64,000 nt of DNA from Parasutterella muris (GTDB lineage Bacteria; Pseudomonadota; Gammaproteobacteria; Burkholderiales; Burkholderiaceae_F), in the NCBI RefSeq assembly GCF_009767915.1, contig NZ_WSRP01000010.1:1-64000 (forward strand), given 5' to 3'. The notes below the pieces were generated by a model, which was not told the origin of the DNA, ran no database searches, and saw only the letters and a program-made list of their open reading frames with translations. Numbering within the stretch: position 1 is the stretch's first letter; every line of letters begins with the position of its first letter. Shown one piece after another: positions 5,672 through 48,926 of the stretch. The position numbers and the translations under genes are program-made.

Positions 5672-5674
5672 AAC

Positions 5675-12828: not shown

Positions 12829-12854
12829 TTTTGATTTAGTGAATTTTAGTTGCG

Positions 12855-14832: not shown

Positions 14833-14852
14833 AGCTTCGCCGCTATTACTCT

Positions 14853-23422: not shown

Positions 23423-23439
23423 ATCGATTAAAAATAGGG

Positions 23440-27482: not shown

Positions 27483-27495
27483 AGCAAATCGAGAA

Positions 27496-29228: not shown

Positions 29229-29239
29229 CGAATGGACTC

Positions 29240-30159: not shown

Positions 30160-30170
30160 TCTTTGGAGTA

Positions 30171-32897
30171 TCAAGGATTAGGGTTGGCGGCTTTCAGGCT
30201 TCTTTCCTTAAGAACCGCGTGAATCGCGTCGTGAGTAGAAAGCCCTTTGGACCGGAATTTCTGAATGTCGGAAATATCGTTCGGATGGGAGCTCGTGAGA
30301 AGCAGCGTGTACGGGTCCAAAATCAGACGATTAACAGAGGGCGGGGCGTCTCCGATGCGGACATATACCTCGGAGTAGGCGCCGGCAAGTGAAGTGAGCG
30401 ATCCGAGGATTTTGTATTCGGATTCATCCATACCGAGCTGGTTTTCCTTTTCCGCCTCGGCAAGCGCGGAATCCTTCAGTCTCAGAATAAATATACAGTC
30501 GGCATTATCGAGCGCGGCTTTTGCGGTATCGCTTTTCCAGTAGTCGCCCGGTTTCTGCGTCGCGGTAAAAAATGCTCCGTTTTGTTTACGCGCCCGTCGA
30601 TAGCCGGTTTCGATAAATTTACCGGAGTGGCCGCCCGCCATTAAGTCCCAGGCCTCATCGATGATGACGAGTTTTGGCTGAGAGCGCTCGCCTCTGCGCA
30701 TCTCCAAATCAATTTTGTACATCAGAAGAAGCAGCACTACGGACTGCAGCGACTTTCGGGTGCTGAGCTGCTGGAGTTCAAGAACGATAAAGTTGTTGTC
30801 GAAATTAATATTGGCTTCTCCCTCAAAAAATGACGCGAAGGGGCCTCCTTTGGCGTACGGCAGCAGCTGCACGCCTAAGTCCACCAGTCTTGGATCGTCA
30901 TAGCGCTTTTGTTCGTCCGCACTCAGGCTGTCATAGACGCGCGCCCATTCGTAATCACCGACTCTCGGGTTGGTTCCGCCGAGTCTGCCGTTGCGAAGCA
31001 GCGATTCGGCAAGATCAGTAATCGTCGCGGTGCGGCCTTCTTCCAAGGATCTGGCATACACGCTTCTAAAATGCACCTGCAGGTGCGAAAGCCTCAAATC
31101 GTCCAGAGGCTGAGAGGGAGAGGCCATCTGCGCTAAGAGCGGCAGCATCAGATCCATGTCCTCGTCGATATTTGTGATCATCGAGAAAGGATTAAGACAA
31201 TCAAAAGTGCCGTCCTCTTTGGTCTGAGGCGAGAGTTCAATGAACTGACCGTTGAGTACGCTGCATAACTTTGCGTAGCTTCCGCCAATATCGATGATGT
31301 AGACGCGGGATCCGCAGGCAAGCGAGCCGATCGCGAGACTATTAAGAAGAACGGACTTGCCGGAACCGGAGTTTCCGATCACAACACCGTTATAGTTGCC
31401 GTTCGGGTTGGCGTACGGGTCGACTAAAACGAGCTGACCTCTACGGGATAAAAACGAAAGAATCGGCGTGGGTTCCGTTTTACCCGCGCGAGGTCCGGTC
31501 CCTTTCCAATCGGCGAGCACAGGCAACGTGTTGGCGGCGTTTGCGACGGTCTTCGTGGAGGAGCGCTGCGCGAGTTTTACATCGAAGGCGAGCAGAGGGC
31601 CTCCTGAGAGCGGCAGTGATGTGATAAGCCCCTGCAGGTGCATGTAATCATCCACGCACAGATCAATGCCGAGCGTTTTAAAGACGGATTTGGCGCTCTC
31701 GACTGCGTTGGCGCGTTCGCTAGCTTTGGCAAACACAAAGACCTCATGACTTAACTGCAGCAGTCCTTCGCCGCTTTCGTAGGCAGCCATTGCGCTTCGC
31801 CAATCCCTAGCTTCATCCTGAAGCGAAGGGATCATTCGGGCGATTTCGGTTGCGGCCATCTGTTCGGCTCGTGCGCTTTTAAGGCGTGCGGCCGCTTTTC
31901 CCTTATCGTAAGAGCCTTTGCTGAGATAAGTGGTGATCAGAAACGGGGAGGAAAACGCGGCGGAACTTCCTTTAACGCAGCCTGCGGCATGCATCATGGA
32001 GGCAAGCGTGATGTGCTCCGGATAACTGACCGGAGAAAAGCTGATGCCGAGCACCTCATCCTCGATATGCTTTGAATGAAAGCGCACGCCGTCCTCGGTC
32101 ATGTCAATGCGGGTGTCGCGCGAGACACACTGCATGCGGGGTTCACGCGCGGGATCGGGTTCCGCCGGCGACCATTCGCCGGAGCGCATGCGCTGAGGAT
32201 TAAGAATCTGCGAAACGGTATTGATGAGCGCGCGTTTATTCCAAATCCACGGAGAAAAGTGCCATTGTGAGAGCGAGGACATATGTGAAGCGCGAATGGT
32301 TTTAGCGCGTTCGCGCTCACACTCGTCCAAGGGGTGTTTCGTGGGGATCACGACCGACATCCAGCAGCGCATATTGCGCGCTCGGATTTTAAGGTCCTTG
32401 TGGGGCGCTTGGAGCGCGCCCTGATTTAAGAAATCCGCCCGCGCGTGCGCCATGCTGAGCATGATGGATTTCTGCTCAAATCTTAGCGGAGAGTCGTCTT
32501 CGCTCGGTTCAACAGCCGCCTTACGGATATATTCTGTGAGCGGCTCGATATAGGGAGAGCCAAAGAGCGAGACCTGAACGCCTGCGCCTTCTTCCAGAAC
32601 AGAGCCGAACATTTCTTCCAGGCTTTTAGCCATCATGTCGTTCGCGCCTGTCTGCGGATGGATTTCTATGACGTAGCCGATGCCTTCAAAACTTCCGTCC
32701 GGCGCGCAGACAGCGCACAGACCGTCAGAGTCGTCAAAGTGCGCATAGGGGAGCTCCTGTGCGAATTGATCGATGAGCATGGAGGAATTGCGGCGGCAGT
32801 GCCCGATAGTGTCGGCTCTCGTGTAGTTGCTCTCAAAGCGCTTGACAGAAAACGCCTTGGAAAGACGCGCGCTCAGGTTTCTAAGACGGTTGTTCAT
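30171..32897 (-). CDS. traC: TraC, VirB4-type T4SS ATPase
   Basis: A protein of about 908 aa, the conserved motor of the secretion apparatus. Walker A GNSGSGKS is near residue 508 and Walker B LVIIDEAWDLM near 742. The downstream FTATQKPGDYW and LRLKDS segments are typical of TraC/VirB4. The N-terminal ~300 residues are the TraC_F_IV domain. TraC acts at the cytoplasmic face of the inner membrane and powers pilus assembly. The ATG at 32897 is chosen over a TTG four codons earlier. Full family length (850-900 aa), no defects seen. Confidence 0.93.
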   Translation of the reverse strand: MNNRLRNLSARLSKAFSVKRFESNYTRADTIGHCRRNSSMLIDQFAQELPYAHFDDSDGLCAVCAPDGSFEGIGYVIEIHPQTGANDMMAKSLEEMFGSVLEEGAGVQVSLFGSPYIEPLTEYIRKAAVEPSEDDSPLRFEQKSIMLSMAHARADFLNQGALQAPHKDLKIRARNMRCWMSVVIPTKHPLDECERERAKTIRASHMSSLSQWHFSPWIWNKRALINTVSQILNPQRMRSGEWSPAEPDPAREPRMQCVSRDTRIDMTEDGVRFHSKHIEDEVLGISFSPVSYPEHITLASMMHAAGCVKGSSAAFSSPFLITTYLSKGSYDKGKAAARLKSARAEQMAATEIARMIPSLQDEARDWRSAMAAYESGEGLLQLSHEVFVFAKASERANAVESAKSVFKTLGIDLCVDDYMHLQGLITSLPLSGGPLLAFDVKLAQRSSTKTVANAANTLPVLADWKGTGPRAGKTEPTPILSFLSRRGQLVLVDPYANPNGNYNGVVIGNSGSGKSVLLNSLAIGSLACGSRVYIIDIGGSYAKLCSVLNGQFIELSPQTKEDGTFDCLNPFSMITNIDEDMDLMLPLLAQMASPSQPLDDLRLSHLQVHFRSVYARSLEEGRTATITDLAESLLRNGRLGGTNPRVGDYEWARVYDSLSADEQKRYDDPRLVDLGVQLLPYAKGGPFASFFEGEANINFDNNFIVLELQQLSTRKSLQSVVLLLLMYKIDLEMRRGERSQPKLVIIDEAWDLMAGGHSGKFIETGYRRARKQNGAFFTATQKPGDYWKSDTAKAALDNADCIFILRLKDSALAEAEKENQLGMDESEYKILGSLTSLAGAYSEVYVRIGDAPPSVNRLILDPYTLLLTSSHPNDISDIQKFRSKGLSTHDAIHAVLKERSLKAANPNP

Positions 32898-32924
32898 GCG
32901 TACACTCAATTAGGATTAAGACAA

Positions 32925-33449
32925 TTAAAGAGGATGAGAAGAGGCGCCAAAGCCAAGTGCGGGAAGCTGCTTGAGCTTTTCCTTTTTGATTTCTTCCTTG
33001 CTCAGCTCTTTCTCTGAAGAAAGCGGATAGACGGGTTTAGAAATGCGTGAAGAAGCGGCAAGCGACTGCACGCTTTCAGAATCCCAGCTGCCGTTATTAA
33101 GACGGACATAGAGATAGCGCTGATCGTGCAGATCGCCCTCTTTATCGGTAAAGGGCGCGAGCCACACGCGAAGCACTGTCTCGGGCGTGCACCAGGGCTT
33201 TGCGGGAATAATCGTGACAAAGTCCTTTCGTTCTCCGACCGTATCCTGAACCGCAGCGGTGAGCTCGGCGGGGACGGACTGAGCGACCGGATTATTCTCC
33301 GCATACACTTGAGAAATATTGCGGCAGCTCGGCCCTCCGGAAAGGTCCGCGCATCCGAAATCCGTCTTCGCGTTGGAAAACCCGGTAATCGATCCGCAGC
33401 CTGTGAGCGCGGCAGAAGAGAGCATTAAAAGAATGAGTTTGAGTTTCAT
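32925..33449 (-). CDS. traV: TraV, outer-membrane lipoprotein of the T4SS core
   Basis: A 174-aa lipoprotein with a lipobox LTGC after a short hydrophobic leader. Next to traB and traK, this is the expected VirB7-like TraV, which together with TraK (VirB9-like) and TraB (VirB10-like) forms the outer-membrane core complex. Sequence conservation in TraV is low, so assignment rests on lipobox, size and position. It starts five bases after the DsbC-like gene. Confidence 0.75.
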   Translation of the reverse strand: MKLKLILLMLSSAALTGCGSITGFSNAKTDFGCADLSGGPSCRNISQVYAENNPVAQSVPAELTAAVQDTVGERKDFVTIIPAKPWCTPETVLRVWLAPFTDKEGDLHDQRYLYVRLNNGSWDSESVQSLAASSRISKPVYPLSSEKELSKEEIKKEKLKQLPALGFGASSHPL

Positions 33450-33454
33450 GATGA

Positions 33455-34282
33455 TCAGCTCTTCTGCGCGTCAACAAAGTTCTGAAGCTTCTCTAAGGGA
33501 AGCGCGCCTGAGATTCGGTCGCCCGCTTCATTGATCAGTGTGGGCGTGCCGCCGATGCCGTGTTCAGCGGCTAAACGAATCACGTCGCTCACCACGGAAG
33601 AACATAAGGGATTATTAGCGAGCGCTTTAATATCGTCGCCTTTAAGCGCTTTAGAGAGTTCCGCGGAAGAGTCTTTTGCGCACCAGACGGCGTCTGACTT
33701 CGCTCTGGCCTTCGGATGAATCGATTCCAGAGGAAAAAGGAACGTATACACCGTCGTGTCTTTAAGATCTTTAAGCGTCTGCGCTAGTTTGCGCGAATAC
33801 GGACAATCCACGTCTGTGAATACCGCCAGCTTTTTGCTGCCGTTTCCGTAAACGGTCTTAACCGCTTTATCAAGCGGAAGAGAATTAAAGGCGATACGCC
33901 TTAAATCCCTGACGCGCTTTTCTGTCAGATCAACGCCCTGATCCATATCCAGAAGTCTTCCGGAGAAGAGAAACCGCGCGCTCGAATCAAAGTAGATGAC
34001 TTCTTTGCCGACCGAAGCTTCAAAGATGCCTTTAACGGGCGTTAAAGAAAAGAGCTTGACCTGAGTTTTAGGGTAGCGCTCCTGAAAGTTTTCTACCGCC
34101 TGTTTCAGTTCTGTCGAAAGGTTGCTGTACTTAATCGCTTGAACTTTAGCTGCGCTAGTGCTCTCAGAGGCGGTCTTAACGACCGTGGCGGGATTGCCGC
34201 AGGAAGCGCCGCCCGCAAAAGCAAAAGTGCTGAATGTGCCTAGGGCGGAGACTAAAAGAATAGAAAATTTTGATTTAATCAT
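33455..34282 (-). CDS. DsbC-like disulfide isomerase with CPYS active site
   Basis: A 275-aa exported protein with an N-terminal DsbC dimerisation-like domain (VKGIFEASVGKEVIYFDSSARFL region) and a thioredoxin-fold C-terminus. The active-site segment is VFTDVDCPYSRKLAQTL, so the resolving cysteine of CXXC is Ser163; C160 remains. The cis-Pro GTPTLIN is present. Conjugative elements often carry a DsbC to fold cysteine-rich TraN and TraU. A single-cysteine site could bind or isomerise disulfides but not perform normal thiol-oxidase cycles. Confidence 0.8.
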   Translation of the reverse strand: MIKSKFSILLVSALGTFSTFAFAGGASCGNPATVVKTASESTSAAKVQAIKYSNLSTELKQAVENFQERYPKTQVKLFSLTPVKGIFEASVGKEVIYFDSSARFLFSGRLLDMDQGVDLTEKRVRDLRRIAFNSLPLDKAVKTVYGNGSKKLAVFTDVDCPYSRKLAQTLKDLKDTTVYTFLFPLESIHPKARAKSDAVWCAKDSSAELSKALKGDDIKALANNPLCSSVVSDVIRLAAEHGIGGTPTLINEAGDRISGALPLEKLQNFVDAQKS

Positions 34283-34298
34283 ATTTATTCAAATGAAA

Positions 34299-35519
34299 TT
34301 ATTTATCATCGATGCGTTCGATAGAAAGGCCGTTGGAAATTACGATTTCTACCTTACGACCGGAGTCCACCTCTAAGACCGGGAACATGTCGCTCGCGAG
34401 TTTGAGGTAGTAGTCGGTAATACGGTCCATAGCGTGTGAGGCGCCTTCTCCGACACCCGCACGCCAGGGGTTAGTGACAGTGGTGGAGATCGTGCCGGTA
34501 ATCGACGTGGTGGAGTTTTCGCTTGCGAGTGACACGGCTTTGCCAAGACCCGCGAGCGTGCCGGTAAAGAGCGCGTTGGCGATCGCTTGGCCGCTTTTTG
34601 TCACCAAACGGGCCCTAAGCCCGGTCTTGCCGTCTTCGCCCGAGACATATCCCTGGATCTTTTTATCCACGGCGCCGCCGTTCTCGTCTATACAGGAAAG
34701 TCGGTCGAGACGCACCAGTACGCGTTCACTTGCCAATTCTCCCGTAGCATTAGCAGTCATGAAGCAGCGCTTGATGCCGGCTTTATAGAGGTTTGGCATC
34801 ACCGCGGAGTCGGTGAGCTCCAGCAGGATCGGCACCGGGTTTCCGGATCCCTGACCTCGTGTGGGCGCGGTTGCGCCGTTTAGAAGTCTTGCCTGAGCAA
34901 ATGTGCCGCTCGGAAGATACATGAGGGATTTACCGCGAGCGTCCTTTTCGGCTTTGCCAAAAACCTCAGCACTCTTGTTAAGCGCTTCATCAAAACTGAC
35001 GACCGTTAAACGAGGCGCCTTCTCAGAAGGGTTAGCGTTGCCCTGCGCAATGTAGCGCCGGGACGCGGCAGAACCCGCTGCGCCGCTTTTAAAACCTTTC
35101 CTGACGGGACTATTAGAGGAAGGTATCTTGCCAATCACGTCCGCGGGCGGCCAGCCGTCCTTGGATTCGTGAGTGATCGGCGTCTTAGCTCCGGATTTAG
35201 ATCCGCGCTCTAAGGCGGCAAGACGCTCTTCTAGGCGTCGCTTGTCTTTTTCAAGCTGCGCTTCACGATTTTTAGCGTCACGGCTTTCTTTTTCCAAGCG
35301 CATCAGACGCTCGTTATAGACGGCCTGATGCCGCTCGTATTCGTTCTGGCTCGGTGCCATAGAAATCTGAGTGGACGTGGTTTTGCCTTTAGGCGGCCTT
35401 TCGTCCTTTTTCTCAGTGCAGGAAGTCACGCCGTAGATGACCGCGCCTGCGAGGAGAATCGCGATCACAATGGTTTTGTACTGCTTGAACTTTTCTGTTT
35501 TTTCTGAGAAGCTGCTCAT
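34299..35519 (-). CDS. traB: TraB, VirB10-like T4SS core protein
   Basis: A 406-aa inner-membrane-anchored protein: a transmembrane segment at about 14-32, a coiled coil with alternating K/R/E at about 58-112, a Pro/Ser-rich linker and the VirB10-like beta-barrel domain from ~160. That domain holds YLPSGTFAQARLLNGATAPT and LELTDSAVMPNLYKAGIKRC; the C-terminal part carries NPWRAGVGEGASHAM. TraB spans both membranes in the core complex. It overlaps traK by ATGA, and its length is close to the family norm (400-475 aa). Confidence 0.92.
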   Translation of the reverse strand: MSSFSEKTEKFKQYKTIVIAILLAGAVIYGVTSCTEKKDERPPKGKTTSTQISMAPSQNEYERHQAVYNERLMRLEKESRDAKNREAQLEKDKRRLEERLAALERGSKSGAKTPITHESKDGWPPADVIGKIPSSNSPVRKGFKSGAAGSAASRRYIAQGNANPSEKAPRLTVVSFDEALNKSAEVFGKAEKDARGKSLMYLPSGTFAQARLLNGATAPTRGQGSGNPVPILLELTDSAVMPNLYKAGIKRCFMTANATGELASERVLVRLDRLSCIDENGGAVDKKIQGYVSGEDGKTGLRARLVTKSGQAIANALFTGTLAGLGKAVSLASENSTTSITGTISTTVTNPWRAGVGEGASHAMDRITDYYLKLASDMFPVLEVDSGRKVEIVISNGLSIERIDDK

Positions 35520-36217
35520 GACGCATCCTCTCTAATAATCCACAGATCCGCTGAAGCCTTGGGTTTAAGAGATGTGGATTCGGTTGCGACTGCGACAACG
35601 CCGCGGCGGTAAAAATCCGCTTCTCGGATCTGCAGCGTTTCCTGTGTCTGATTCATTAAGTGATAGCGCTCCAGCCTTAAACCGAGGAGGCGCCAGGCGG
35701 CTACCGGATTTCCGATCAGGTAGCCGTCCGTGATCGTGCCTTTAAGGACTTCCGCATGCTCATGAGAGAGCGACGGAATCGCTCTCAGGATTCTTTGAAC
35801 ACGCTCTTCATAAGGAAGAGCGCTCTGATCATTAGAAGAAAGCTGAGAACGGGGATTCGGCAGCTTGGTGTCCTTCAGCGCGATTGTCTGAGCGATCAGC
35901 CGTTCTTTAGGAGAAATCGTTACGGCATGCGTTTCTCCGCTTTCGCTAATGATAAAAATCGAAGACTGCTCTTTAGTGAGCGGAATAAAGTAGAGGGATC
36001 CGGTGGATTTATCCGGGTCAAGCTGGATGCTTTGTGTATCAGCGACCGCTTTAGCGATCCTGCCGTTTTCGATATAGATACGGTTGGGCTGCTTAAAAGC
36101 AGCGGGTGCTAACACGGAAGCGTCGGTTTTAGCCTGCGTTTGTACTTTGGGCATTTCTTTGGCTTCAGCGCAAAGCGTTGCCCCGAGGAGCATTAAGAAA
36201 ACTGCGGTTTGCTTCAT
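35516..36217 (-). CDS. traK: TraK, VirB9-like secretin of the T4SS core
   Basis: A 233-aa exported protein (signal ends about CAEA). PNRIYIENGRIAKAVAD, then KSTGSLYFIPL and ETHAVTISP are typical of TraK N-terminal beta domains, and the C-terminal half matches the family in length and position. TraK forms the outer-membrane ring with TraV and TraB. It shares ATGA overlaps with both traE and traB. Confidence 0.88.
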   Translation of the reverse strand: MKQTAVFLMLLGATLCAEAKEMPKVQTQAKTDASVLAPAAFKQPNRIYIENGRIAKAVADTQSIQLDPDKSTGSLYFIPLTKEQSSIFIISESGETHAVTISPKERLIAQTIALKDTKLPNPRSQLSSNDQSALPYEERVQRILRAIPSLSHEHAEVLKGTITDGYLIGNPVAAWRLLGLRLERYHLMNQTQETLQIREADFYRRGVVAVATESTSLKPKASADLWIIREDAS

Positions 36218-36819
36218 GACGGCTCTCCCTTATGATCTTCGGAAAGCGCCTCAAAGGGTTTTCTGCAGTCGGACTCTTGGATGGTATTGATCCAGAGGCG
36301 GGAACCGAGGTACGAGAACTGAACTATCCAGCACTTTCGCATGCTGGAGGTTTTACTATTGCCGATAAATTGACGAATCGAGCCCGTGACCGCAGCCTGA
36401 AGCTGTGCGGGACGCACTTCCACAGACTCGGGCATAAAGTGCACCGAGGCGTTGCTCGCCTTTAAGCGGCGGCCTTGGCTCACGAGCTGAAGCTCGGTTT
36501 CTCCTCTGTCCTCCGGCGCAACGTAAGAAAGAAGCTTCTTGACGTTGTAGTCGAACGTTTCGGGAGAATTATTGAGCGCCAACTGCAGTGCAAAGATGCT
36601 CATCTGCTCGAGATAATCAGCTGAGACGGTTTTATTGTCGAGCCAAAAGGATTTGGTGGTCTCTGCGGGAAGCACAATGATTCTTTCCTGACGCTCAATG
36701 CTCGCGATGCCTGCGGCCAGTACGACGTTAGTCACCAAGGAGGCTGCGAACGCGTACACCACAGAAGTGCGCAGCGCTAGTCGGGAAGAGACTTCGGAGA
36801 CGTATTCCTGGACATTCAT
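36214..36819 (-). CDS. traE: TraE, VirB8-like inner-membrane protein
   Basis: A 201-aa protein with one transmembrane segment at about 18-40, a cytoplasmic N-terminus and a periplasmic TraE domain (KSFWLDNKTVSADYLEQMSIFA, then LLSYVAPEDRGETELQL). It belongs to the pilus-assembly platform. It overlaps traK by ATGA and follows traL by seven bases. Standard size for TraE (188-200 aa). Confidence 0.92.
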   Translation of the reverse strand: MNVQEYVSEVSSRLALRTSVVYAFAASLVTNVVLAAGIASIERQERIIVLPAETTKSFWLDNKTVSADYLEQMSIFALQLALNNSPETFDYNVKKLLSYVAPEDRGETELQLVSQGRRLKASNASVHFMPESVEVRPAQLQAAVTGSIRQFIGNSKTSSMRKCWIVQFSYLGSRLWINTIQESDCRKPFEALSEDHKGEPS

Positions 36820-36826
36820 TTGAGAA

Positions 36827-37114
36827 TTAACCTATAAATCGACGCCTGCTGGAGGGCGGCGTGCGCTTAAATGTTTTAAACGGCGTGTGCCAGTACAGAC
36901 AATGCAGTCCGTATCTGGGGTGTCGTCCGGCCTTTAAACGGACGTAAGCCCACATGCAGACGACGGAAGCGAGCGCGCCGATCAATAATGAGTTGACGAT
37001 GATTCCGATACCGAAACCGGCGGCAGCGGCCGCCACCTGATCGAAATCCCACAAAAGGAACTTGGCGGGTGCGTCAAGTTTTCTGGGTACAAAGGATGGA
37101 TCGTAACGGGACAT
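36827..37114 (-). CDS. traL: TraL, T4SS inner-membrane protein
   Basis: A 95-aa protein with one or two hydrophobic segments (about 35-60). The N-terminal FVPRKLDAPAKFLLWDFDQ matches the TraL opening (..pk.ld.p.r.l.w..de), and the later CLYWHTP fits the family's (L)YW.(P). TraL is VirB3-like and sits next to traE and traA as usual. Confidence 0.9.
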   Translation of the reverse strand: MSRYDPSFVPRKLDAPAKFLLWDFDQVAAAAAGFGIGIIVNSLLIGALASVVCMWAYVRLKAGRHPRYGLHCLYWHTPFKTFKRTPPSSRRRFIG

Positions 37115-37128
37115 GACGGATATTCCTT

Positions 37129-37162
37129 TTCTTGGGTTCGGCTAAAAGACCGAACCCAAGAA
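37129..37162. promoter_or_regulatory. 13-bp hairpin between pilin and traL genes
   Basis: A perfect 13-bp stem (TTCTTGGGTTCGG / CCGAACCCAAGAA) with an 8-base loop follows the traA stop. No U-run follows on the transcribed strand, so it is more likely a stability or attenuation structure that raises pilin message over downstream genes than a full terminator. Confidence 0.65.
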
Positions 37163-37168
37163 TGACGG

Positions 37169-37492
37169 TTAGATAAGAGCCGTAAAGATGTTGTCGATGA
37201 TCTGCGGCCCGATGAAAAGCGCCATGGCGGCCGCAAGACAGCCGACAGCGCCCATGATGGATCCACGAACCACGCCGACACCAAGGCCTACTAAGAGGAA
37301 CATCAGCGCGATTGAACGGCCGAGCGTGCCCTGAGACCAGTTTTTAAGCATGTCGTAAAGGCTCTGAAAGTCCTGATCGGTGCCGGCAGCGAACGCGCAT
37401 TCGGGAAGCGCGGCGGCAAGGACGACAAAGGTAAGAGAAAGCAGCATCGGAAACGCGGCTGCAATGACATTAGAACTCAGTTTGAATTTCAT
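37169..37492 (-). CDS. traA: TraA, F-type propilin
   Basis: A 107-aa propilin. A long leader (about 1-35) ends in an AFA|AGTDQ-type cleavage site; the mature ~70-residue subunit has the two hydrophobic helices of F-type pilins (LGRSIALMFLLVGLGVGVV and GCLAAAMALFIGP). The subunit is stored in the inner membrane and polymerised into the pilus. It is followed by a strong hairpin, consistent with high expression, and by traL. Confidence 0.88.
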   Translation of the reverse strand: MKFKLSSNVIAAAFPMLLSLTFVVLAAALPECAFAAGTDQDFQSLYDMLKNWSQGTLGRSIALMFLLVGLGVGVVRGSIMGAVGCLAAAMALFIGPQIIDNIFTALI

Positions 37493-37603
37493 AATTGATC
37501 AAAAAAATGGGAATGAACAAAAGCAAGCACAAAAAAACTCCCCGCTCCGCTGCTTTTGTTCAATAAGAAGCGGAGAGCATGACAACGAATTGGTGAAGGA
37601 CGA

Positions 37604-38080
37604 TTAAGAGGAGACTTTCCTTAACTTGTCCCGTTTGGCGTCCGATAAACTCATGAGCGCCCGATAAACTTTCCACGCATACGTTTGGCGGGCTGAGATG
37701 CAGTCCGCTCCTTTAAGACGAGTGCAGGCGGCGTTATATGCGCCGACCGCTTCCCAAGGGTTCTCTAAGCGCTTCATATTGTCCGAGAGGATTTCCGCTC
37801 CGATCTCGATATTGAGACAGACGTTTTCCAATAGCTCTTTCTTGGTGGTGTTAAAGCGCTTGAGCCAGGAAGAGTTGATCTGCATCAGCCCGATATCTTC
37901 GCTGGAGCTGTTTTTGCCGACGGCGTTCGGGTTGCCCGAAGATTCCACCAGCGCGATGGCTCGTAAAAGATCCGCGTCCAGACCTTTAGCCAGCGCGTGT
38001 GTCTCAAAGCAGTCCTGCGCGTTTACGGAAGTACTTAGCGCTAAGGCTGAAAGAACAATTAAAAGAGGGCGAGTATTCAT
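37604..38080 (-). CDS. Lytic transglycosylase (conjugation-associated)
   Basis: A 158-aa exported protein of the SLT/VirB1 family (signal ends at about NAQ). The catalytic glutamate is E46 in AIALVESSGNP; GLMQINSSWL and the later YNAACTRL complete the SLT fold. It opens peptidoglycan locally for assembly of the apparatus. In F the equivalent is Orf169. It overlaps the preceding gene by one base (TAATG). Confidence 0.92.
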   Translation of the reverse strand: MNTRPLLIVLSALALSTSVNAQDCFETHALAKGLDADLLRAIALVESSGNPNAVGKNSSSEDIGLMQINSSWLKRFNTTKKELLENVCLNIEIGAEILSDNMKRLENPWEAVGAYNAACTRLKGADCISARQTYAWKVYRALMSLSDAKRDKLRKVSS

Positions 38081-38703
38081 TATCCGAATCGATGGAAGTT
38101 ACTGACAATTACATGGATGCTTAAAAGGAACGCCGCGTAAAAGACCATAGAAACCCAGACAGGAATCGCAAACGGAATCAGCATTACGGTAAAGGCGCAG
38201 GTGAGCAGTACAGGCGGAGCGCTCAAAGCCGTCTGATAGAGCGTCGGGTGGTGCGAAGCAAAACTTTCGTACTTGAGACGTCTGACAACCCAAGCATCGA
38301 ATACGACAGTTAAAAGGATCGGGCAGAGCGCGGCAAACCAAATCAGCGCTAGCACCGCACGAATCATTGAGAGTTCCAGCATGGCTTTTAACGCCATAAA
38401 GTAAGGTGAAGACCAAAGACGATTAAAAAATGATTCCATCGGAGCCTCATGCTCGGCGTCTAAATTAGCCGCCTCGGGAAGGTATGCGCCGCCTGTGACT
38501 TTGGAGAGGGCGGAGGAGACACTATCGCGAAGACTGGAGAGTTCAACGTCTGCAAGACTCAGGAAGGATTCGAGCTTTTGGCTGGTGTCATCAATCTGAA
38601 TTTCAGCATGACGATTAAAAGAAGTATGGTCGGCTAAACCGGGCCACCAGATAATCGAGCCGAGCAGCAGGATAAACAAAATAATAAAGATGCGGGCAAA
38701 CAT
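38080..38703 (-). CDS. DUF4400 conjugation membrane protein
   Basis: A 207-aa membrane protein with segments near 3-22, 105-130, 160-177 and 180-200. The segment FDAWVVRRLKYESFASHHPTLY, followed by a hydrophobic region with LPFAIP-like sequence, is typical of DUF4400 proteins found directly after traD in SXT/R391-type MOBH elements. Its function is not established. It begins 12 bases after the traD stop. Confidence 0.75.
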   Translation of the reverse strand: MFARIFIILFILLLGSIIWWPGLADHTSFNRHAEIQIDDTSQKLESFLSLADVELSSLRDSVSSALSKVTGGAYLPEAANLDAEHEAPMESFFNRLWSSPYFMALKAMLELSMIRAVLALIWFAALCPILLTVVFDAWVVRRLKYESFASHHPTLYQTALSAPPVLLTCAFTVMLIPFAIPVWVSMVFYAAFLLSIHVIVSNFHRFG

Positions 38704-38715: not shown

Positions 38716-40587
38716 TTAATCAGTAATGACGGGCACATGGCCTTTAAGCAGATGGCCGCCGCCTACGAAGGCGAAAAACTGACCATTCGGAAGCTTGCCT
38801 AGGTATTCCGACGGGATAATCTCTTCGCGCACGGCGGTGCGTTTATGAGAGGCTCCGCCCTCAAAGGAAGGAAGACCGGCGTGCGTGTCCGCATGCGTTG
38901 AGAGCGTAGTGTCGACCTGATGAATGTAGGTCTTGCCAAACGTCTCCGTTACGAAGTCCTGAGTCGGACGATCCTTGCAGCGCAGCGCGATCAGATTGTT
39001 GCAGTTGCCGAGCACCATGCGCGCTGCATCCTGAGAACCTAATCGGTGCGCAAGGTCGGCAATCGTCTGCATGGCTACCGTGGTATAGATGCCGCCTTCG
39101 GCGCCTTTATTCAGAATTTCAATTAGAGGATTGTTGCAGACATTAGACGCCTCATCCACAAAGAGCGAAATCCGAATATCCGTCTTACCGAGGTTGTATC
39201 GTTTACCGGCTACACTGACCAAATCGCCTAAGAGAATAGAACCGACAGCAGACGCAATCATATTGTCGGATAAAGAATCCAAATGGCAGTACAGACAGGA
39301 GCGGGTGAGGATAATACTTTCGAGATTCCAGATTGGACGGGAGTCGGTAGAGTCCTTAGGGTCCGGTGAGAACGAGTCTCCAAGCGGCCCGCTTGTCAGC
39401 ATCGCAAAGATCGGCATTAGGGAGGCGGTTATCTTGGCGTAATGCTCCTTAGAGTGATGGAAGACTTTAAGACACTCGTCTACGACCAGGGTCTGCTCCT
39501 TTTTATCGAGCACATGCTCGTAAAAAGAGACCATTAAAAGAAGCTCTTCTTGAGATTCCGTGAGGCGGCCTTCCTTAATCGGCGCCATAAAAGATCGGGC
39601 TTCTTCCCTCCAATTCTCGCTTGCAAAGCGCTCAATACGATCAAGAAGGAGATCACGCAGCAGATCATCAATACCGTGATTGATATGCTTGGAAAGAAGT
39701 TTTAAAGAGGGCTTGATCTTCAATTCAATCAAGGCGTCCGCAAATGTCTTAATGCAGGACCAGGCGAACTGAGTAAAGGCGTCAGGCTTCCCAGGTATTA
39801 CTGACATAATGCGTGTTGCGATCTGGGCGCCGGTTGAGAATGTCGCTAACGGATCGAGTCGAATGCCTTTGGTTTTATCGCGATTGCCCGGATGATAGTT
39901 GAGGGGCTCGCCGCGGCCGGCGGCAGTGCAGGCTTTGCGGAAGGACTCGTAGACACGGGGAGAACCTTTGGGGTCAATGAAGATGACAACATCGTTTCTT
40001 AACACTGCCTGAGAAAAGAGATTGCAGAGCGCGACGCCTTTACCTGCCTGAGTGGTTCCGAGAATTAAAGTGCCGCCCTCAAAATTTTTAAGGAATCGAT
40101 GAAGCTCGATTTCGTTGGGTTCAAGTCCATGGATATAGGGCATACCAATTTCTTCATTCTTCTGATACTGATCACCGCGCCCGAAAAAGCGATGCATAAA
40201 ATCAGGGAGCATTAAAGAGGCGGGATTGATTCTGGAGAGTTCATGCAGTTTCTGCGTGTGTTTCGGTTCCCACACAAAACCGTATCCAAGCCAAAGATGG
40301 TCAGGTCGCATCAGCGTTTGAAGCTTAGAGCGCGGCATCAGTTCAAACCGTCTTCCTGAGAGCAGACTTCTGTCACGCAGAATAAGCCAGCCCTCATGGC
40401 CGCGTTTCACCGCGAACACAATGCAGACCATATAGAGAAGCGCAGACATTTCGCGCGGCATAACATGCTGCGCGTGCAGGTATGCCATGTAGGCAGACGC
40501 GAAGAGCCAAACCGAAGCGGCGTATATCTCGTACGCAGTGCGGTAAGGCAAAGAATGCCGACGGGTTAAAGAGGATTCGTTTCTCAT
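38716..40587 (-). CDS. traD: TraD, type IV coupling protein
   Basis: A 623-aa coupling protein (VirD4/TraD, MOBH-associated TraD_N type). There are two N-terminal membrane segments (about 28-65), Walker A GTTQAGKG near 176, Walker B LFVDEASN near 475, and the late TVAMQTIADLA motif. It recruits the relaxosome to the secretion channel. It overlaps the upstream unknown gene by ATGA and is followed by DUF4400, the SXT-type order. It appears intact, which implies that a DNA or protein substrate is still delivered. Confidence 0.93.
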   Translation of the reverse strand: MRNESSLTRRHSLPYRTAYEIYAASVWLFASAYMAYLHAQHVMPREMSALLYMVCIVFAVKRGHEGWLILRDRSLLSGRRFELMPRSKLQTLMRPDHLWLGYGFVWEPKHTQKLHELSRINPASLMLPDFMHRFFGRGDQYQKNEEIGMPYIHGLEPNEIELHRFLKNFEGGTLILGTTQAGKGVALCNLFSQAVLRNDVVIFIDPKGSPRVYESFRKACTAAGRGEPLNYHPGNRDKTKGIRLDPLATFSTGAQIATRIMSVIPGKPDAFTQFAWSCIKTFADALIELKIKPSLKLLSKHINHGIDDLLRDLLLDRIERFASENWREEARSFMAPIKEGRLTESQEELLLMVSFYEHVLDKKEQTLVVDECLKVFHHSKEHYAKITASLMPIFAMLTSGPLGDSFSPDPKDSTDSRPIWNLESIILTRSCLYCHLDSLSDNMIASAVGSILLGDLVSVAGKRYNLGKTDIRISLFVDEASNVCNNPLIEILNKGAEGGIYTTVAMQTIADLAHRLGSQDAARMVLGNCNNLIALRCKDRPTQDFVTETFGKTYIHQVDTTLSTHADTHAGLPSFEGGASHKRTAVREEIIPSEYLGKLPNGQFFAFVGGGHLLKGHVPVITD

Positions 40588-41450
40588 GATGCTGAGGGTT
40601 CGTGATAGATAATAGGAGCAGTGTGCGTCGCCGGAATAAATCCATACGTAAAAGCTTCGCGCGGTACATATTTATCTCGCATATTTCTGTAGTAAACCGT
40701 GTTGTAGGTGTCTCGACAGGCCCTTACGCGTCGAACTTTGTAGGTTTTAAATTCCGGATGACTTTTGAAGTATTCGCGCCAATAAATGAGCCGCTCATTG
40801 AAATAAGCCGCTTTGAGATGAATGCGTTCTGCTTCGACTTTACGCCAGCGGTAGGAACGCTGCATCCAGCGGATTTCATGCGGAGTAAATTTTCGGAACA
40901 TCTGAGCACGAAGTTTCTTGTAATAGTTCTGCTCCTGACGCTCTGTAAAGTAAAGACGTTTAACAAGGGTTCGCAAGGGAGCAAGTGGTTTTGTCTGATA
41001 GAGGCGCTCGATCGCACCGCCTTCGACCGCACGACGAAGCTTTTCGTCAAACTCCTGATACGTCCAGCGATGGATAATGCAGCGCTGCACTTCGGTATTG
41101 CTGAAGTGCTTACGGTAATGACTGCTGCAGAGACGGCGCGTTGCGCGATAGTTTTTACAGCAGGTCTCCCAGTTGTGCACGAAATGCTTTTTCACCGGGA
41201 TATCCATATCGGCACGTGGAAACCGGATGCGAGGCTTTTGGATAAGGATTTTTTTCCAAGTCATGTGTGTCCTCGCCGGTTTGAATTCTCTGCTGATGAC
41301 CTGCTGAGCACCAAGCGAAATAATGACATCCGCGTTCTTGGTGAGCAAAGCGGTTCTGGCGAGATTGTTCAGCCGACGTTTGTCCAGATCGGTAAGACAA
41401 ATCAGACCGTACTCGGAGAATAAGCCTTCTTTCATAGGAGATAGGAGCAT
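40584..41450 (-). CDS. Unknown basic protein in conjugation operon
   Basis: A 288-aa, strongly basic protein rich in Arg, Lys and Tyr, with no signal peptide or membrane segment. Cysteines and histidines are clustered around residues 111-136 (NWETCCKNYRATRRLCSSHYR, then RCIIHRW), which could bind metal. I do not recognise a family. It sits between the TraI_2-like gene and traD and overlaps traD by ATGA, so it is probably a DNA-handling accessory such as a relaxosome component. A long open frame also exists on the opposite strand, but the operon context favours this one. Confidence 0.65.
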   Translation of the reverse strand: MLLSPMKEGLFSEYGLICLTDLDKRRLNNLARTALLTKNADVIISLGAQQVISREFKPARTHMTWKKILIQKPRIRFPRADMDIPVKKHFVHNWETCCKNYRATRRLCSSHYRKHFSNTEVQRCIIHRWTYQEFDEKLRRAVEGGAIERLYQTKPLAPLRTLVKRLYFTERQEQNYYKKLRAQMFRKFTPHEIRWMQRSYRWRKVEAERIHLKAAYFNERLIYWREYFKSHPEFKTYKVRRVRACRDTYNTVYYRNMRDKYVPREAFTYGFIPATHTAPIIYHEPSAS

Positions 41451-41605: not shown

Positions 41606-44600
41606 TCAGCTATTGGTTACGGGGTTGATTTTTGGGTTCAGTTTCTTTTTTGAAGCGGTTTTCTGATTTCCGGCGCTCGTTTGTTTAGTGCTTGTGCCGG
41701 TTTTCTTTGCGGACGTGCTCTTTTTAGCCGCGGCACTCTTGTTTGCCGAATTTGGTTTAGAAGCCGCTGCTTTTGATTGAGTCTTAGAAGGGGCAGTGGC
41801 CTTTGCAGAGGTTGCGGCTGGTTTTGCTCGTGAGGCGCCGGTCGTTCCCTTGGCCTTTGAAGAGGGAGAGCCCGATTTTGCGGCACCAGTTGCCTTCGTC
41901 GTCTTCGAGGATGTCTTGGCCGCAGCGCTGCTCGTTTTTGTGGTTTTAGCGCCGGAGGCGGTTTGCGATCCGGAAGCTGACTTTGTTTTAGAAGCGGCAG
42001 TCTTCTTAGAGGAGGCGCCGGCTGTCTTAGTCTTTGCAGGAGCGCTAGGACTTTTAATGACAGACGTTTTAACGGCTTCCTGAGCAGCAGTGCTGCAGGC
42101 TGCGTTCGCACTTTTACCGGCACTGCTTGCTGCGGATTTACTGTGAGCGAAGCCAGCCGCTTTCTCGTCAGAATCGACGGACTCCTGAGTATTAAAGGAT
42201 TGAGGACAATTGTTTTCAGGTTCGGCGCCGGGATCGACTTCTGCATAAACCGAGGGCAGCTCGATTGAGAATTCGTCTTGATCCTCATCCCCAAGCGCGC
42301 TTAAACCGCTGACCGCATCCGGCTCATCGTTGTACTCCTCATCTTCAGAAACATACTCTTCCCCTAACTCAGAGTCTTCAGCTAAAGCATTCTTGCTAAT
42401 CGCTTGAGCGTCAGACGCACTATCAGAAGCAGCAGGAGTATCGATCTTCGCTTTGAGAAGTGAAGTTGTTTCCATTTGATCGTTTGAAGACAGAGTGCTA
42501 ACGGTAGTCTCTTTTTTCTTTGAGACTGCTTCAGACGAGGCAGCAGTATCCGCAGCTTTATCAGAAGCCTCGAGGCGAGCAGAACCTTTAAGGGACTGCG
42601 GGACCGGATCAAAATACAAGTCTTCATCCTTGTTCGAAGGATTAATTGAGGGCTGTTCTTTTGCAGAAACGTCAGTTGCGGCCGCATCAACAGGCGCTTT
42701 ATCAGAAACCATAGACGCGGTGACACATTCAGAAGGAGGGCTAGAAGCCTTTGTCTGAGTTGACGCTTCTATGTCCTTATCTGTTTCTGCGGCAGCTTTG
42801 CAGACTACTCGTGTATCGGTCTTCTCCGCGTTAACAGGACTGTTAAGTTCTGTTTGAGTCACTTTGGCGGCAAGGCCGTCGGCAGAGACTTCAGACTGTG
42901 GGGAAGATAAAGTCTGACGAACTTCGGCGCTGGTCTTAGGCGCAGAAGCAGAAACTGCTTCTGCGTTCTGCGAAGCACTCTGCGAAGCTGCGGACTGACC
43001 ATTAGAAGAGCAGACAATGGAGTTCTCAGTATCACTGTCGATGCTGTCAGAACCGTAATTCGTCGGACTCTCACCCTTTAATCTGACGCAGGAGTTTGCA
43101 ATCTGATCAACCACGTCTTGAGACGGAGCAAACAGATATTTAAGAGAAAGGCTAAGGCGGTTCAGAATGCTAGGGAATTCTGTTTCTTCCACTTGCGATT
43201 CAGAAGCATTGCAAGGAGAGGATTCACCGGAAACGTCCGCCTTATCTTCTTCGCTATCTGCGGCATTGAGCTTTGCATCAGAAGCGGGAGCATTAACAGA
43301 AGCGGAAGATTTCGCAGCGCATGTCTTAACAACATCCGTTTTGCCTTTAGCCTCTTCAGGCGCTGAGGAAGGACAATTAGAAGAGGATGCTTCAGCTTCT
43401 GCAGAAGTCGGTTCGGACTTTTGTTCGCTAGAAGCTTTTTTAGGAAGAAGCTTCTCAGAGAGGCGCGTTCCTGCTTCCAGCTGAATCTCGGTCGTATATT
43501 TAGCCGCTTCTTCCTTATAGCGCTTTTCGCTTTCTTCGGAATTCTTCTTTGCGGTTGCCCAGAAGATACTCGAACGCATATTCTTCTTCTGCATGCGAGC
43601 CTTTTGATCTTCGCGGCTCTTCTCGCGAAGGACGTTTAAAAATAGAGAACTAAAGAAATTGTTTTCTCTCATCGCTTTTTCAGTAAGCGGTCCCACAGGA
43701 TCTGCCATGCGGTGTTCCTTCGTGCAGATCGTCGCTCTTTCTTCGGCGATCTCCTGCTTAGAAATGATCGGAAGTTCACGACCCTTTGCCATCTTTTTCT
43801 TTAAAGCGCTGCAGTGATCCTGATACTTTTTGAACCACTCGGAACTTGGCGCAAAATAACACTGCGGATTGATTAAGCGAAGAGAGCGAACGAATCCGGT
43901 GTCTGTGTCGGACTTTTTATCGCTGCGCGTAGTGAACATCTGACCGGAAGGCTCCAATTCAAAAATACCGCACTGGACAGCGCCGGAGATGGAATTGATG
44001 CGATCCCAGTCAATTGTCGGGAAAAGCTGCTTGAGTTTGGAGTGGACCAAGCTGAAGAACTTTTCTGTGACGAAAACCTCACCTTCATAGAAATGCACGT
44101 ACTCCTGATGATTTGCACCGGAGTATTCGCTCAGCTCTTCTTCGAAGAGCGTGTTGATAGCGATCGCAAATACGGTTGTGAAAGAAGCGCTTCCTGCGGG
44201 ACCGCTGGCTAAACGGCGCTCCAGATCTTTCTGGATGACTAGAGTCTGCGCTTGGTGAACCGCATCGGTGACGCCGCTGTAGTGCTCTTTGTAGTCACGG
44301 ATATTCAGCGTGATAAAGGAATGAATACACGGGATCAAATCGTTGTCACCGCCCGCACGGATGAGTCGCCAGATGTTTTCAGAAACATCCTGGCAGACGA
44401 TTAAAAGGGCGAGCGCAGAAACATCTCGATCGCTGCAGCCGCTATTGCGCAGCAAAGACAGTGTGCATCCGTCATTTCGTTTAAAGAAATCAAGCAGGCG
44501 CTCAGAAAAGTCAAACACGTCTTCGCTATTGGAACGAATAATAAAGGAGCGGATTAGAGCAGGGAGCGGATTATAGAAAGCCATAATCACCACTGCGAGC

Positions 44601-44911
44601 TTAATGGAAAAGATAGCTTGTTCTCTGTTCTTGAGTGGAAGATGAAAATAGAGAATTGTGTCTCTCAGGATATAGAGTGCCTGAGAAGCACTCATCAGCG
44701 CAAAATTAAAATAACCAAGGGGTTCTTTAAATGAATCCCCGTCAGAGAGCGGAAGCCGCTGTACTCGCCTGGCTATCGAAGAAATCAGTTCAACAGCTGT
44801 TGGCAGCGTGTCATTGTCCGCCCATGCAGAAATCATTCTCTCGAAACTGTCGAGAGAAGTGACTTCTAAAGGCAGAAGCGGCTGTAGACAAGCGGAAAGA
44901 CGGTGATTCAT
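41606..44911 (-). CDS. TraI_2-like protein lacking the HD metal site, with histone-H1-like tail
   Basis: A 1101-aa protein in the position where MOBH elements carry traI. Residues ~35-350 follow the TraI_2 outline: RVQRLPLSD (49-57; family VQxLPxSE), GYFNFALMSA (66-75; family GGLLRHsLEVA) and LAVVIMAFYNPLPAL (105-119; family LaaLLHDvGKPL). The later FYEGEVFVTEKFFSLVHSKL corresponds to the C-terminal subdomain. The family's HHH, the H of GGLxxH and the HD pair are replaced, so nuclease/HD activity is unlikely. Residues ~350-900 are low complexity and acidic; ~930-1101 are repeats of Ala, Lys, Ser and Thr like histone H1. It is therefore probably a structural or DNA-binding relaxosome protein rather than an active relaxase. 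Domain alignment is by eye. Confidence 0.6.
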   Translation of the reverse strand: MNHRLSACLQPLLPLEVTSLDSFERMISAWADNDTLPTAVELISSIARRVQRLPLSDGDSFKEPLGYFNFALMSASQALYILRDTILYFHLPLKNREQAIFSIKLAVVIMAFYNPLPALIRSFIIRSNSEDVFDFSERLLDFFKRNDGCTLSLLRNSGCSDRDVSALALLIVCQDVSENIWRLIRAGGDNDLIPCIHSFITLNIRDYKEHYSGVTDAVHQAQTLVIQKDLERRLASGPAGSASFTTVFAIAINTLFEEELSEYSGANHQEYVHFYEGEVFVTEKFFSLVHSKLKQLFPTIDWDRINSISGAVQCGIFELEPSGQMFTTRSDKKSDTDTGFVRSLRLINPQCYFAPSSEWFKKYQDHCSALKKKMAKGRELPIISKQEIAEERATICTKEHRMADPVGPLTEKAMRENNFFSSLFLNVLREKSREDQKARMQKKNMRSSIFWATAKKNSEESEKRYKEEAAKYTTEIQLEAGTRLSEKLLPKKASSEQKSEPTSAEAEASSSNCPSSAPEEAKGKTDVVKTCAAKSSASVNAPASDAKLNAADSEEDKADVSGESSPCNASESQVEETEFPSILNRLSLSLKYLFAPSQDVVDQIANSCVRLKGESPTNYGSDSIDSDTENSIVCSSNGQSAASQSASQNAEAVSASAPKTSAEVRQTLSSPQSEVSADGLAAKVTQTELNSPVNAEKTDTRVVCKAAAETDKDIEASTQTKASSPPSECVTASMVSDKAPVDAAATDVSAKEQPSINPSNKDEDLYFDPVPQSLKGSARLEASDKAADTAASSEAVSKKKETTVSTLSSNDQMETTSLLKAKIDTPAASDSASDAQAISKNALAEDSELGEEYVSEDEEYNDEPDAVSGLSALGDEDQDEFSIELPSVYAEVDPGAEPENNCPQSFNTQESVDSDEKAAGFAHSKSAASSAGKSANAACSTAAQEAVKTSVIKSPSAPAKTKTAGASSKKTAASKTKSASGSQTASGAKTTKTSSAAAKTSSKTTKATGAAKSGSPSSKAKGTTGASRAKPAATSAKATAPSKTQSKAAASKPNSANKSAAAKKSTSAKKTGTSTKQTSAGNQKTASKKKLNPKINPVTNS

Positions 44912-44920: not shown

Positions 44921-46249
44921 TTAGTGCCGATGCGGATTATGTGACGTGTTCTTTAAGTGTTTTTTGTTAAAACTTCCGCAGAAGTTCTTAATCAGTTCAG
45001 AATTTTTTTCTGTTGAGGGAATTTGGTTTAAATACTTTTCACTCCATTTATCGGGAAAACCTTTGAGCGCCCAGGCGCAATAATCGAACGGGCCGTCGTG
45101 ATGCGCACTTTGTTTCAAGTAATTCAGAAAAGACTGGACCTTGGAAATAATTGCGACCAGATGGTTGTTATTGATGAACTGCGGCCACAGGGATGACTGT
45201 TTTGAAGTTTTTCCGGGCTGATAATTAAAGAATGGAGAGTGTTTAAGCGTGTAAAGCGAGACCAAAGCGGCACTCTTTTCAGACAGATCGTATTTTTTCA
45301 TGCAGAGTACAGCCAGACATGCAGCAAACCCCATGAAGAAATACACCGAGTCTTTATTCACAACGTTGGCAGGAATCTTTTGACCGTAAATATTCGGCTC
45401 AACAATCGTGCGAGTAGTTCCGTCCTTCCTAATCACTTTATGTGTCAAGCTGAAGTGCTTACCCATAAGATCTTTAGAGTAGATCTTCAAAAATTGAGAG
45501 AAATCTCCTTTAAAGTACGAATCAGGGCGCTGTGACCTGGAAGATAGGTTGGTATTCCAAAGCTTAATGAGGTTTATCAGTTCATTTGTGTTGAACTTCT
45601 TACTTCCTCTGAGCTTTAATGTTGAGTCCAGAAAATCGATGCAGCCCGTAACTTCTGAACATTTAAAGTTTGAGCTTGTACAGCACTTCCAAATACGATC
45701 AGAAATTTCGTCCCAACAAGGATTGGAAAGTTCCGAGTATTCGGATTCTTCGATATGCTTCAGAAAGCGTGCCTGCAGGGAGCGCCATTGAGAGCCGCTC
45801 AAGTCAAAGAGCATCGCGCTGATCATTCTGTTGCTGCACCTGGCTTGAAGTGCGTAGTAGATAAACGCCCAATTTCTGACAGTGCACATTAAACGTGAGG
45901 AGCCCTTCTTTAAGGATGGAACCAGCCGCTCGATATCGCCTTCGTATTTGTCGATGCTGACCTTGTCGTTCAAAGAATAGGCGAGGATCAAGGCGTGAAG
46001 CATATGTCTTGAAGGACGCTGTTTCTTTGTTTCAACGTAGCTTACCGTCGGCAGCTCTTCGAGCTGCAGCAAGGAGAAGGGAATTGAAGCGGACAAAATC
46101 ATAGGACTCGTAGGTTCAAGCAGTTGCGTGGGCGGGTTTATCAGTGTGTTGTTAAATCGATACTCATATGCGATACAAAGCATGTTGACGTCCCAAATGC
46201 CGAAAATTAGACCGGTGCCAAGACAACTTTTATTAATGTTCTGAATCAT
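44921..46249 (-). CDS. Unknown protein, first gene of conjugation operon
   Basis: A protein of about 442 aa. The ATG at 46249 has AAAGGTGG just upstream. No signal peptide or clear catalytic motif. A segment near residues 135-160 (RCSNRMISAMLFDLSGSQWRSL) is reminiscent of a helix-turn-helix, and clustered cysteines occur near 185-205 (WKCCTSSNFKC). The SXT group uses FlhC-like activators, but the similarity here is too weak to call. The stop is nine bases before the TraI_2-like gene, so they are co-transcribed. Role unknown; a regulator or relaxosome partner are the main guesses. Confidence 0.6.
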   Translation of the reverse strand: MIQNINKSCLGTGLIFGIWDVNMLCIAYEYRFNNTLINPPTQLLEPTSPMILSASIPFSLLQLEELPTVSYVETKKQRPSRHMLHALILAYSLNDKVSIDKYEGDIERLVPSLKKGSSRLMCTVRNWAFIYYALQARCSNRMISAMLFDLSGSQWRSLQARFLKHIEESEYSELSNPCWDEISDRIWKCCTSSNFKCSEVTGCIDFLDSTLKLRGSKKFNTNELINLIKLWNTNLSSRSQRPDSYFKGDFSQFLKIYSKDLMGKHFSLTHKVIRKDGTTRTIVEPNIYGQKIPANVVNKDSVYFFMGFAACLAVLCMKKYDLSEKSAALVSLYTLKHSPFFNYQPGKTSKQSSLWPQFINNNHLVAIISKVQSFLNYLKQSAHHDGPFDYCAWALKGFPDKWSEKYLNQIPSTEKNSELIKNFCGSFNKKHLKNTSHNPHRH

Positions 46250-47845
46250 AAGGACCACCTTTAATTAATATCAAAACAAAAAAATACTGTTTATCTCAAG
46301 CTGATAAGAAATTTTTAACGTGTCTAATTATTGTATTTTCAAAATTATTATGGTTAATAATGATCTAATTTTGAGTATCTTGCTGCCTGCTTTGGAATGG
46401 TCGGCGGTGAAAAACACCGCCGGACATTCACAGGTAATAAGTTAGATACACTAATAGGTAATTCTTCAAATGAGAAAGATTGTCAGCTGTATATCTTTCG
46501 ACTAATGGCCGGGTGAACAGTAGGTTTTACGCCTAACTAATATTCCGTCTTCGGATTTTCCGAGTCCGAAGATGAGGAAACATTAGTCCTGACAAAGGTT
46601 TCTCTAAGAATTACAGCTCCGACTCTTGGCCGAAGTTCGGAAGAAGATCCTTTAATGTTTTCCAATCGTTCACAGCGGTCAATCACGCGATCCGGACTTT
46701 CCGATCATCATTAGTCTTCTTCGGAAACGAACTTAGTAAGTTCGCAGCCTGAGCTGGAAACAGCAGTGCTGTATCTTCGTTCATATATCTATCCTTATTA
46801 CCAAGTGGGAGACAGACTGCCGACTGTCTACCCGGGTTCAAAAAAATAAGTTTGCCTAGAGTAGCATTAGTTAATCGGTCGAACTACGCCGACCTTTTTC
46901 GATCTCTGGTCGGAAAATTTGCTGTTGCATCTTTCCCGAGTGAGATCGGTGTGAAAGTGTTTATAAACAACTTTCGGTTGAATCGTGGTCCGAAGACCTG
47001 ATTCGCTCTAGGCTCACTATCAAGAGATGCACCTCCATTTCTCAGAGCCTCTACTCATCGAAGATAGAAGTGAATCTCTCGAGCATCGTTCACATTCATG
47101 AAAGAAAACTTCCTGTGATGACACTCGGCCGTTTCTCGTTTGTTTAAAAAAGCGAGCTTCTTTAAAACAGAGCTGCATGCAGCTCCAAGTCCCGGTCTTA
47201 CGAAACAGGCTTTGTGAAATCCGAGGAGATCTAAGCATCGTTTCGCTGAGACGGCGTTTGCATCGGGGAATCCTTTTGCGTCGGCCGTCTCGCTGACGAA
47301 TCGAACTGTACAGAGGGTTAGAAAAATAAAAAACAGATATTTTGGGTCAAAATTTTTAAAATTAACTTTATATTTCTAAAATTAAAACATAAATAACTAC
47401 TTGATTAATTGAGTTTAAATTTGAATCTATTTGAAGAATCGAGATTCCGCAAACTTAAAGAAAATTTCGTGTAATTGATTGTTAAGAAATGAGAATTTAT
47501 AAGACTATAGATGGAAAGAGATTGAATTGTTAATTCAGGGTTATCTTTTATCTAATGTTACGTAAATACAAGTTCTGAAATTAAGTTGGATGGGTTTTGT
47601 CTTAATTAAGTTTTGTCGTATTGGCTGTGATCTGATGACTTGTCAAGTATTTTTGTAGGGTTACTATTTTGATGGATAGTAGCAATAAAGTATTAACAGT
47701 TGATTTATATTAATGTTTTTCAAATAGTTATAATTTCGCTAAACTGGAAAAATATAAATTTATTTCATAGAAGGGTAATATAAAGAAACTCTGCGCAAAA
47801 GGTGGGTTATATGGTATAATTACCGTACTATATTAAGTTACGACT
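46250..47845. other. Gene-free, hairpin-rich region upstream of the conjugation operon
   Basis: About 1.6 kb with no credible coding sequence; short open frames such as 47020-47238 lack ribosome sites and protein character. It holds several perfect inverted repeats: CGGCGGTG/CACCGCCG at 46402-46422, TCTTCGGA/TCCGAAGA at 46548-46572, a 17-base palindrome at 46728-46744, CCGACC/GGTCGG at 46889-46915 and GAGACGGC/GCCGTCTC at 47248-47291. From about 47330 to 47800 it is strongly AT-rich without repeats. Candidate functions are promoter/leader and oriT; neither is proven. Confidence 0.5.
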
Positions 47846-48816: not shown

Positions 48817-48926
48817 GATAAGTGTGTCTGTACGGAATACTTTTAGAATAAATCGATCAATAAAGAGGGGTTAACTACCTGATATCAGAAAAAAATACCT
48901 AATTTTCAGTGAAGGATGCCTTTTCA

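Follow-up and report, generated by a model that had tools for sequence, protein, structure and literature searches.

A MobH/TraI_2-derived protein with a replaced relaxase active site in a TraD and F-type T4SS locus of Parasutterella muris

The locus and its genes

The window analysed here is a stretch of 64,000 nucleotides from Parasutterella muris (contig NZ_WSRP01000010.1, positions 1 to 64,000). Its minus strand encodes an 1101-residue protein, referred to below as the pseudo-relaxase, next to the genes for a coupling protein and a type IV secretion system (T4SS):

44921..46258, minus strand: 445-aa protein upstream of the pseudo-relaxase (ORF)
41606..44911, minus strand: MobH/TraI_2-derived pseudo-relaxase, 1101 aa (profile and alignment evidence)
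43952..44854, minus strand: predicted TraI_2/HD-fold N-domain, residues about 20–320 (AlphaFold2 model, VIA-align, hhalign)
44729..44737, minus strand: D59-S60-F61 at the HHH motif position (alignment)
44702..44704, minus strand: F70 at the GGLxxH histidine position (alignment)
44567..44572, minus strand: N114-P115 at the HD pair position (alignment and hhalign)
42119..43801, minus strand: acidic low-complexity middle region, residues 371–931, net −38 (composition)
41609..42118, minus strand: basic A/K/S/T tail, residues 932–1101, 77% A/K/S/T, net +33 (composition)
40584..41450, minus strand: basic 288-aa protein between pseudo-relaxase and TraD (no family match; model pLDDT 53)
38716..40587, minus strand: TraD coupling protein, SXT type (TIGR03743, SXT_TraD, E 1.2e-169)
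18195..38703, minus strand: F-type T4SS genes, all ORFs open (family matches)

The T4SS set comprises TraG, TraH, TraF, TraN, TrbC, TraU, TraW, the signal peptidase TraF, TrbI and TraC, together with TraV, DsbC, TraB, TraK, TraE, TraL, a transglycosylase and DUF4400. The pseudo-relaxase gene, whose frame and length are as the sequence-only reading gave them, thus has an SXT-type TraD and an F-type T4SS as neighbours, the setting of a MOBH transfer system. It had been described as the gene before traD, which holds for its operon position near TraD but not for direct adjacency, as the 288-aa gene intervenes. The 288-aa protein is Arg/Lys/Tyr-rich and is present only with long-tailed forms of the pseudo-relaxase (in the window and in the related genomes G001, G064 and G063), being absent in G008. 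When it was considered as a hidden relaxase, it matched no Pfam or NCBIfam family and its model was poor. On the other side, the 445-aa gene ends 9 bp upstream of the pseudo-relaxase gene; its slot holds an ORF of 362–479 aa in relatives, and in plasmids of the wider clade described below often an FlhC-family regulator. Elsewhere in the window, several FAD-dependent fumarate-reductase-like genes are clustered beside the T4SS (4250–16448). Two adjacent genes at 11219–14591 carry an N-terminal FQVVDGQQRL-type motif, which we take to be that of DUF262 proteins, and this pair is possibly a defence module.

The histone-H1-like Ala/Lys/Ser/Thr tail of the pseudo-relaxase that had been proposed is real by composition: the last 170 residues, which follow the acidic middle region, are lysine/alanine-rich and nearly acid-free (19% K, 1% acidic). 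In the relatives from G001, G064 and G063 the C-terminal region is long, of low complexity and contains a basic stretch, and the G001 protein has two KRGRK motifs of AT-hook type; the proteins of G008 and G004 and most plasmid members are much shorter. On sequence comparison, the basic tail is a feature of the window's own sub-clade, and from its composition it is a reasonable guess that it binds DNA. A hydrophobic segment, FPSILNRLSLSLKYLFAP (residues 579–596, 43124–43177), breaks the low-complexity region, and a similar stretch is found within this region in G001, G064 and G063. At 1792 aa, the G063 protein (L009, 3929–9307) contains a low-complexity region that is very long and rich in S/K/E/P.

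A TraI_2/MobH domain with a replaced active site

A Pfam scan of the window protein gave no match, TraI_2 included, and NCBIfam MobH aligned colinearly (41–282 versus 38–276) at E 0.022, far below its 200-bit cut-off. Taken by itself this would allow the TraI_2 similarity to be due to chance, an explanation to which we give a negligible probability in view of the bridging orthologues, the profile comparison, the predicted fold and the synteny with TraD. The orthologue in G008 (L010, 587 aa) matches MobH at E 5.8e-24 and TraI_2 above the gathering score, and MobH also recognises the relatives in G063 (E 6.7e-9), G037 (5.6e-8; gene truncated by the contig end) and G064 (3.3e-7). The hhalign comparison of the window family, with the G008 sequence left out, against nine intact MobH domains gave E 2.5e-15 over 286 columns. 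The AlphaFold2 model of residues 1–370 (pTM 0.67, pLDDT 74) has 3kq5 as its closest VIA-align match (Z 16.9, 200 residues, rmsd 3.0), followed by the HD proteins SAMHD1 (Z 9.7) and SpoT (Z 8.5); because Z values under about 13 can arise by chance for helical models, only the 3kq5 match carries weight. The 3kq5 sequence itself matches the TraI_2 profile A2 at E 1.2e-6. Foldseek of the model gave no E below 0.001, and tblastn of the window N-domain against plasmids gave no match. The framework strings quoted in the sequence-only reading are present in the protein, and the TraI_2 resemblance it proposed was recovered in the profile and structure comparisons, although direct Pfam search misses it. 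Judged from these profiles and the model, the N-domain is a true TraI_2/MobH domain with a predicted HD fold.

In the single MOBH relaxase that has been characterised, the 3H and HD motifs are both needed for oriT cleavage (PMC12857230). Relative to the intact MobH L035, which served as reference for the site table, the window protein carries D-S-F for HHH, F for the GGLxxH histidine, N-P for the H-D of HDxGK, V for the next H and Q for the last D. With all eight positions replaced, it has neither the 3H motif and the GGLxxH histidine nor the HD metal pair, the downstream His and the 'AD' Asp. The earlier reading had reported these losses as SF, N and YN. The replacement of the His cluster is real and lies within one residue of the alignment; the other two losses are also confirmed, but the residues named were each one position off, as F70 rather than N69 aligns with the GGLxxH histidine and N114-P115 with the HD pair. 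Among 112 aligned homologues the HD pair is kept in 26 (25 with all eight positions and one with seven), whereas the remaining 86 have neither the pair nor the GGLxxH His nor the final Asp, and a few of them retain at most two residues of the three-His motif. Our literature search, which had the primary paper on the TraI of the gonococcal genetic island (GGI) outside its range, found no report of MOBH proteins without the active site.

The survey of orthologues showed the same active-site losses, with TraD nearby in every case, in the relatives from G001, G063, G064, G008 and G004, all of the same GTDB family. Sequence error is therefore ruled out as the cause, since five relatives share the losses and none has the intact site that would point to such an error. 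The claim that the protein is a former relaxase is supported by these orthologues together with the homology, the place beside TraD and the predicted HD fold. Branches are very long and identity between genus mates is 26%, as would be expected if the gene were a decaying relaxase remnant under relaxed selection. We regard decay as very unlikely, however: the frames are open in four genomes (987–1792 aa), second codon positions are more alike (0.50–0.66) than third positions (0.28–0.33, near random), and the loss spans a whole clade.

The wider clade without the HD pair

A search at the level of the order with the MobH family model gave 36 matches above the curated cut-off, and six of those examined were without the site. 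A scan of the genome collection with a search pattern yielded 105 related loci; 80 of them were taken for comparison. The HD-less homologues from outside the window's family number 80 and are mostly betaproteobacterial. In a tree built with the trait columns removed, the 29 lost-clade sequences sampled from outside the window's family fall on one side of a branch with support 98/96. Grouping the lost clade with the window's family was not rejected (AU p 0.53), and when only the two least diverged family members were included, both nested inside the lost clade. As long branches blur the placement of the window protein, one loss or two are both possible. Loss of the active site is an ancient feature shared by a large clade and not a quirk of the window element.

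The wider-clade protein is under purifying selection: of eight informative pairs (two more were left out, one for having no differences and one for saturation), seven have a dN/dS of 0.12–0.23 and one has 0.52. Around the gene, Paracidovorax wautersii DSM 27981 and Acidovorax sp. 210-6 are 99.99% identical over 17,086 bp, and Comamonadaceae bacterium 2PF and Aquabacterium sp. CECT 9606 are 99.8% identical. Since the collection holds one genome per species, these identities indicate recent transfer, and the sequences point to movement of lost-clade elements between species in the wider clade as distinct from the window's sub-clade.

RefSeq annotates the lost-clade plasmid proteins as MobH relaxase; the lost form occurs on betaproteobacterial plasmids and at ICE-like loci. 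The proteins of Sulfuricystis pSTJ1, Piscinibacter, Janthinobacterium p356839, Azonexus and Paraburkholderia pBN2 share the domain, the synteny and the HD-pair loss with the window protein, but most of them are about 540–730 aa long, keep a conserved ExHR motif and have no long basic tail. MOB-suite assigns pSTJ1 to MOBH and calls the other four non-mobilizable. The five plasmids matching the G008 protein are all called non-mobilizable, including a Dyella plasmid with an intact site, and for this reason the call alone is no evidence for the loss.

In the wider lost clade, (C/S)ExHR stands where HDxGK was, with E in 96%, H in 96% and R in 100% of the 80 sequences, the high frequency of E being partly an effect of the search pattern; H279 and R189 are also conserved. 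The wider clade could thus still encode a relaxase with a rebuilt site that uses a different metal or general-acid chemistry. This is consistent with the conserved residues, with purifying selection and recent spread, and with the finding that five complete plasmids encoding the lost form have no MOBP, MOBF or MOBQ relaxase (three Pfam families). A rebuilt site cannot, however, explain the window protein, which like its five family relatives is without E, H and R as a set, and we know of no nicking chemistry of the ExHR kind. Overall, we consider this explanation unlikely.

A search for the nicking enzyme and a putative scaffold role

The sequence-only reading had also proposed a T4SS with an unusual or external relaxase. 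This agrees with our finding of no other relaxase in the window element or, for the three Pfam families, in the five complete plasmids, while the nickase itself was not found. The annotations of two of these five plasmids (PLSDB gene tables, incomplete) list no other relaxase, and a comparison of neighbours between lost and intact loci revealed no obvious nickase gene particular to lost loci. Elsewhere in the window's genome, TraI_2 and MobH searches gave no match at E 0.001, and one MOBP relaxase lies on a different contig (G000:C76, L184). That enzyme, of 369 aa, lies within a separate T4SS set at 131–8490 with VirB11-like, VirD4-like, SSB, ArdC-like and topoisomerase III-like genes, and we do not claim it as the partner because it sits in this set of its own; similar sets occur in G001 and G063. 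Integrase-like proteins of PF12835 occur in four of the five lost-clade plasmids, with a score short of the family cut-off in W04, and in the majority of the genomes tested; none was seen beside the pseudo-relaxase. The PF12834/PF12835 integrase-like protein as a possible atypical relaxase is a lead and no more. Such a gene lies near PRTRC system protein D in two lost-clade plasmids, NZ_AP018719.1 (79561–80655, L080) and NZ_CP136337.1 (104587–105723, L193).

In several relatives, the region upstream of the 445-aa gene encodes a VWA protein, a further conserved protein, a MoxR-like ATPase and a toprim primase. The VWA, ATPase and primase genes are missing from the window, where an insertion sequence (IS) lies in this region: 46259–50022 is a gene-poor stretch followed by fragmented transposase ORFs (IS remnants). 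As these genes are missing, an IS is present and the window showed no integrase, the window element may be immobile and may no longer transfer. The same observations, together with the lack of a second TraI_2/MobH match in the genome, would fit a T4SS that no longer conjugates but exports protein or free DNA, with the former relaxase as its regulator, its substrate or a structural component. TraD and all recognised T4SS genes have open frames, however, and wider-clade relatives do spread, which makes loss of conjugation distinctly improbable.

The window protein shares the TraI_2/HD-fold N-domain, the operon place by TraD and the F/SXT-type T4SS with the MOBH relaxases (TraI of R391/SXT, IncC and the GGI; NF041494 MobH, PF07514 TraI_2), and differs from them in the replacement of all eight site residues, the long basic tail and the extra basic gene before TraD. 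Like the window protein, GGI TraI is described as having an HD domain with a disordered region after it (PMC12857230). A functional precedent comes from IncC TraI, which is non-essential for mobilisation of SGI1 yet raises its transfer by 3–5 logs (PMC6414798). The presumed SGI1 relaxase is the tyrosine-recombinase-like MpsA, and IncC TraI perhaps recruits the relaxosome to the coupling protein (PMC6414798, PMC9299015). In the case of IncC TraI and SGI1 MpsA/MpsB, a MOBH protein thus boosts the transfer of DNA that has another presumed relaxase; IncC TraI is, however, the relaxase of its own plasmid, whereas the window protein is itself without an active site.

From the basic tail and this precedent, the DNA-binding or scaffold role suggested for the window protein is plausible. 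On balance we favour a MOBH relaxase that has shed its nuclease and been kept as a DNA-binding and coupling scaffold for TraD, with nicking carried out elsewhere. Such a protein would be unable to nick oriT; its H1-like tail would bind the DNA of the element, the protein would act as an adaptor handing the relaxosome to TraD, and the nick would be made by a second enzyme, whose gene lies at another place in the element or in the cell. The presence of the same loss throughout a large clade points to a division of labour that is both long-standing and functional. More tentatively, and with somewhat less than even confidence, we propose that conjugative plasmids and ICE-like elements forming a large clade use the pseudo-relaxase as a relaxosome-to-TraD adaptor alongside an unrecognised nicking enzyme, the window protein being the most derived form, with a chromatin-like tail fused to it.

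Mobility typing and annotation equate a MobH match with a relaxase. A widely annotated set of 'MobH relaxases' is without the residues on which cleavage depends in the only member studied, and the elements that carry them nevertheless spread. There are two ways to account for this: the elements of the lost clade conceal a new nicking enzyme or a new active site, or MOBH proteins have a second, non-catalytic role. Such a role, if true, would be open to study in the lost clade free of the enzyme activity.
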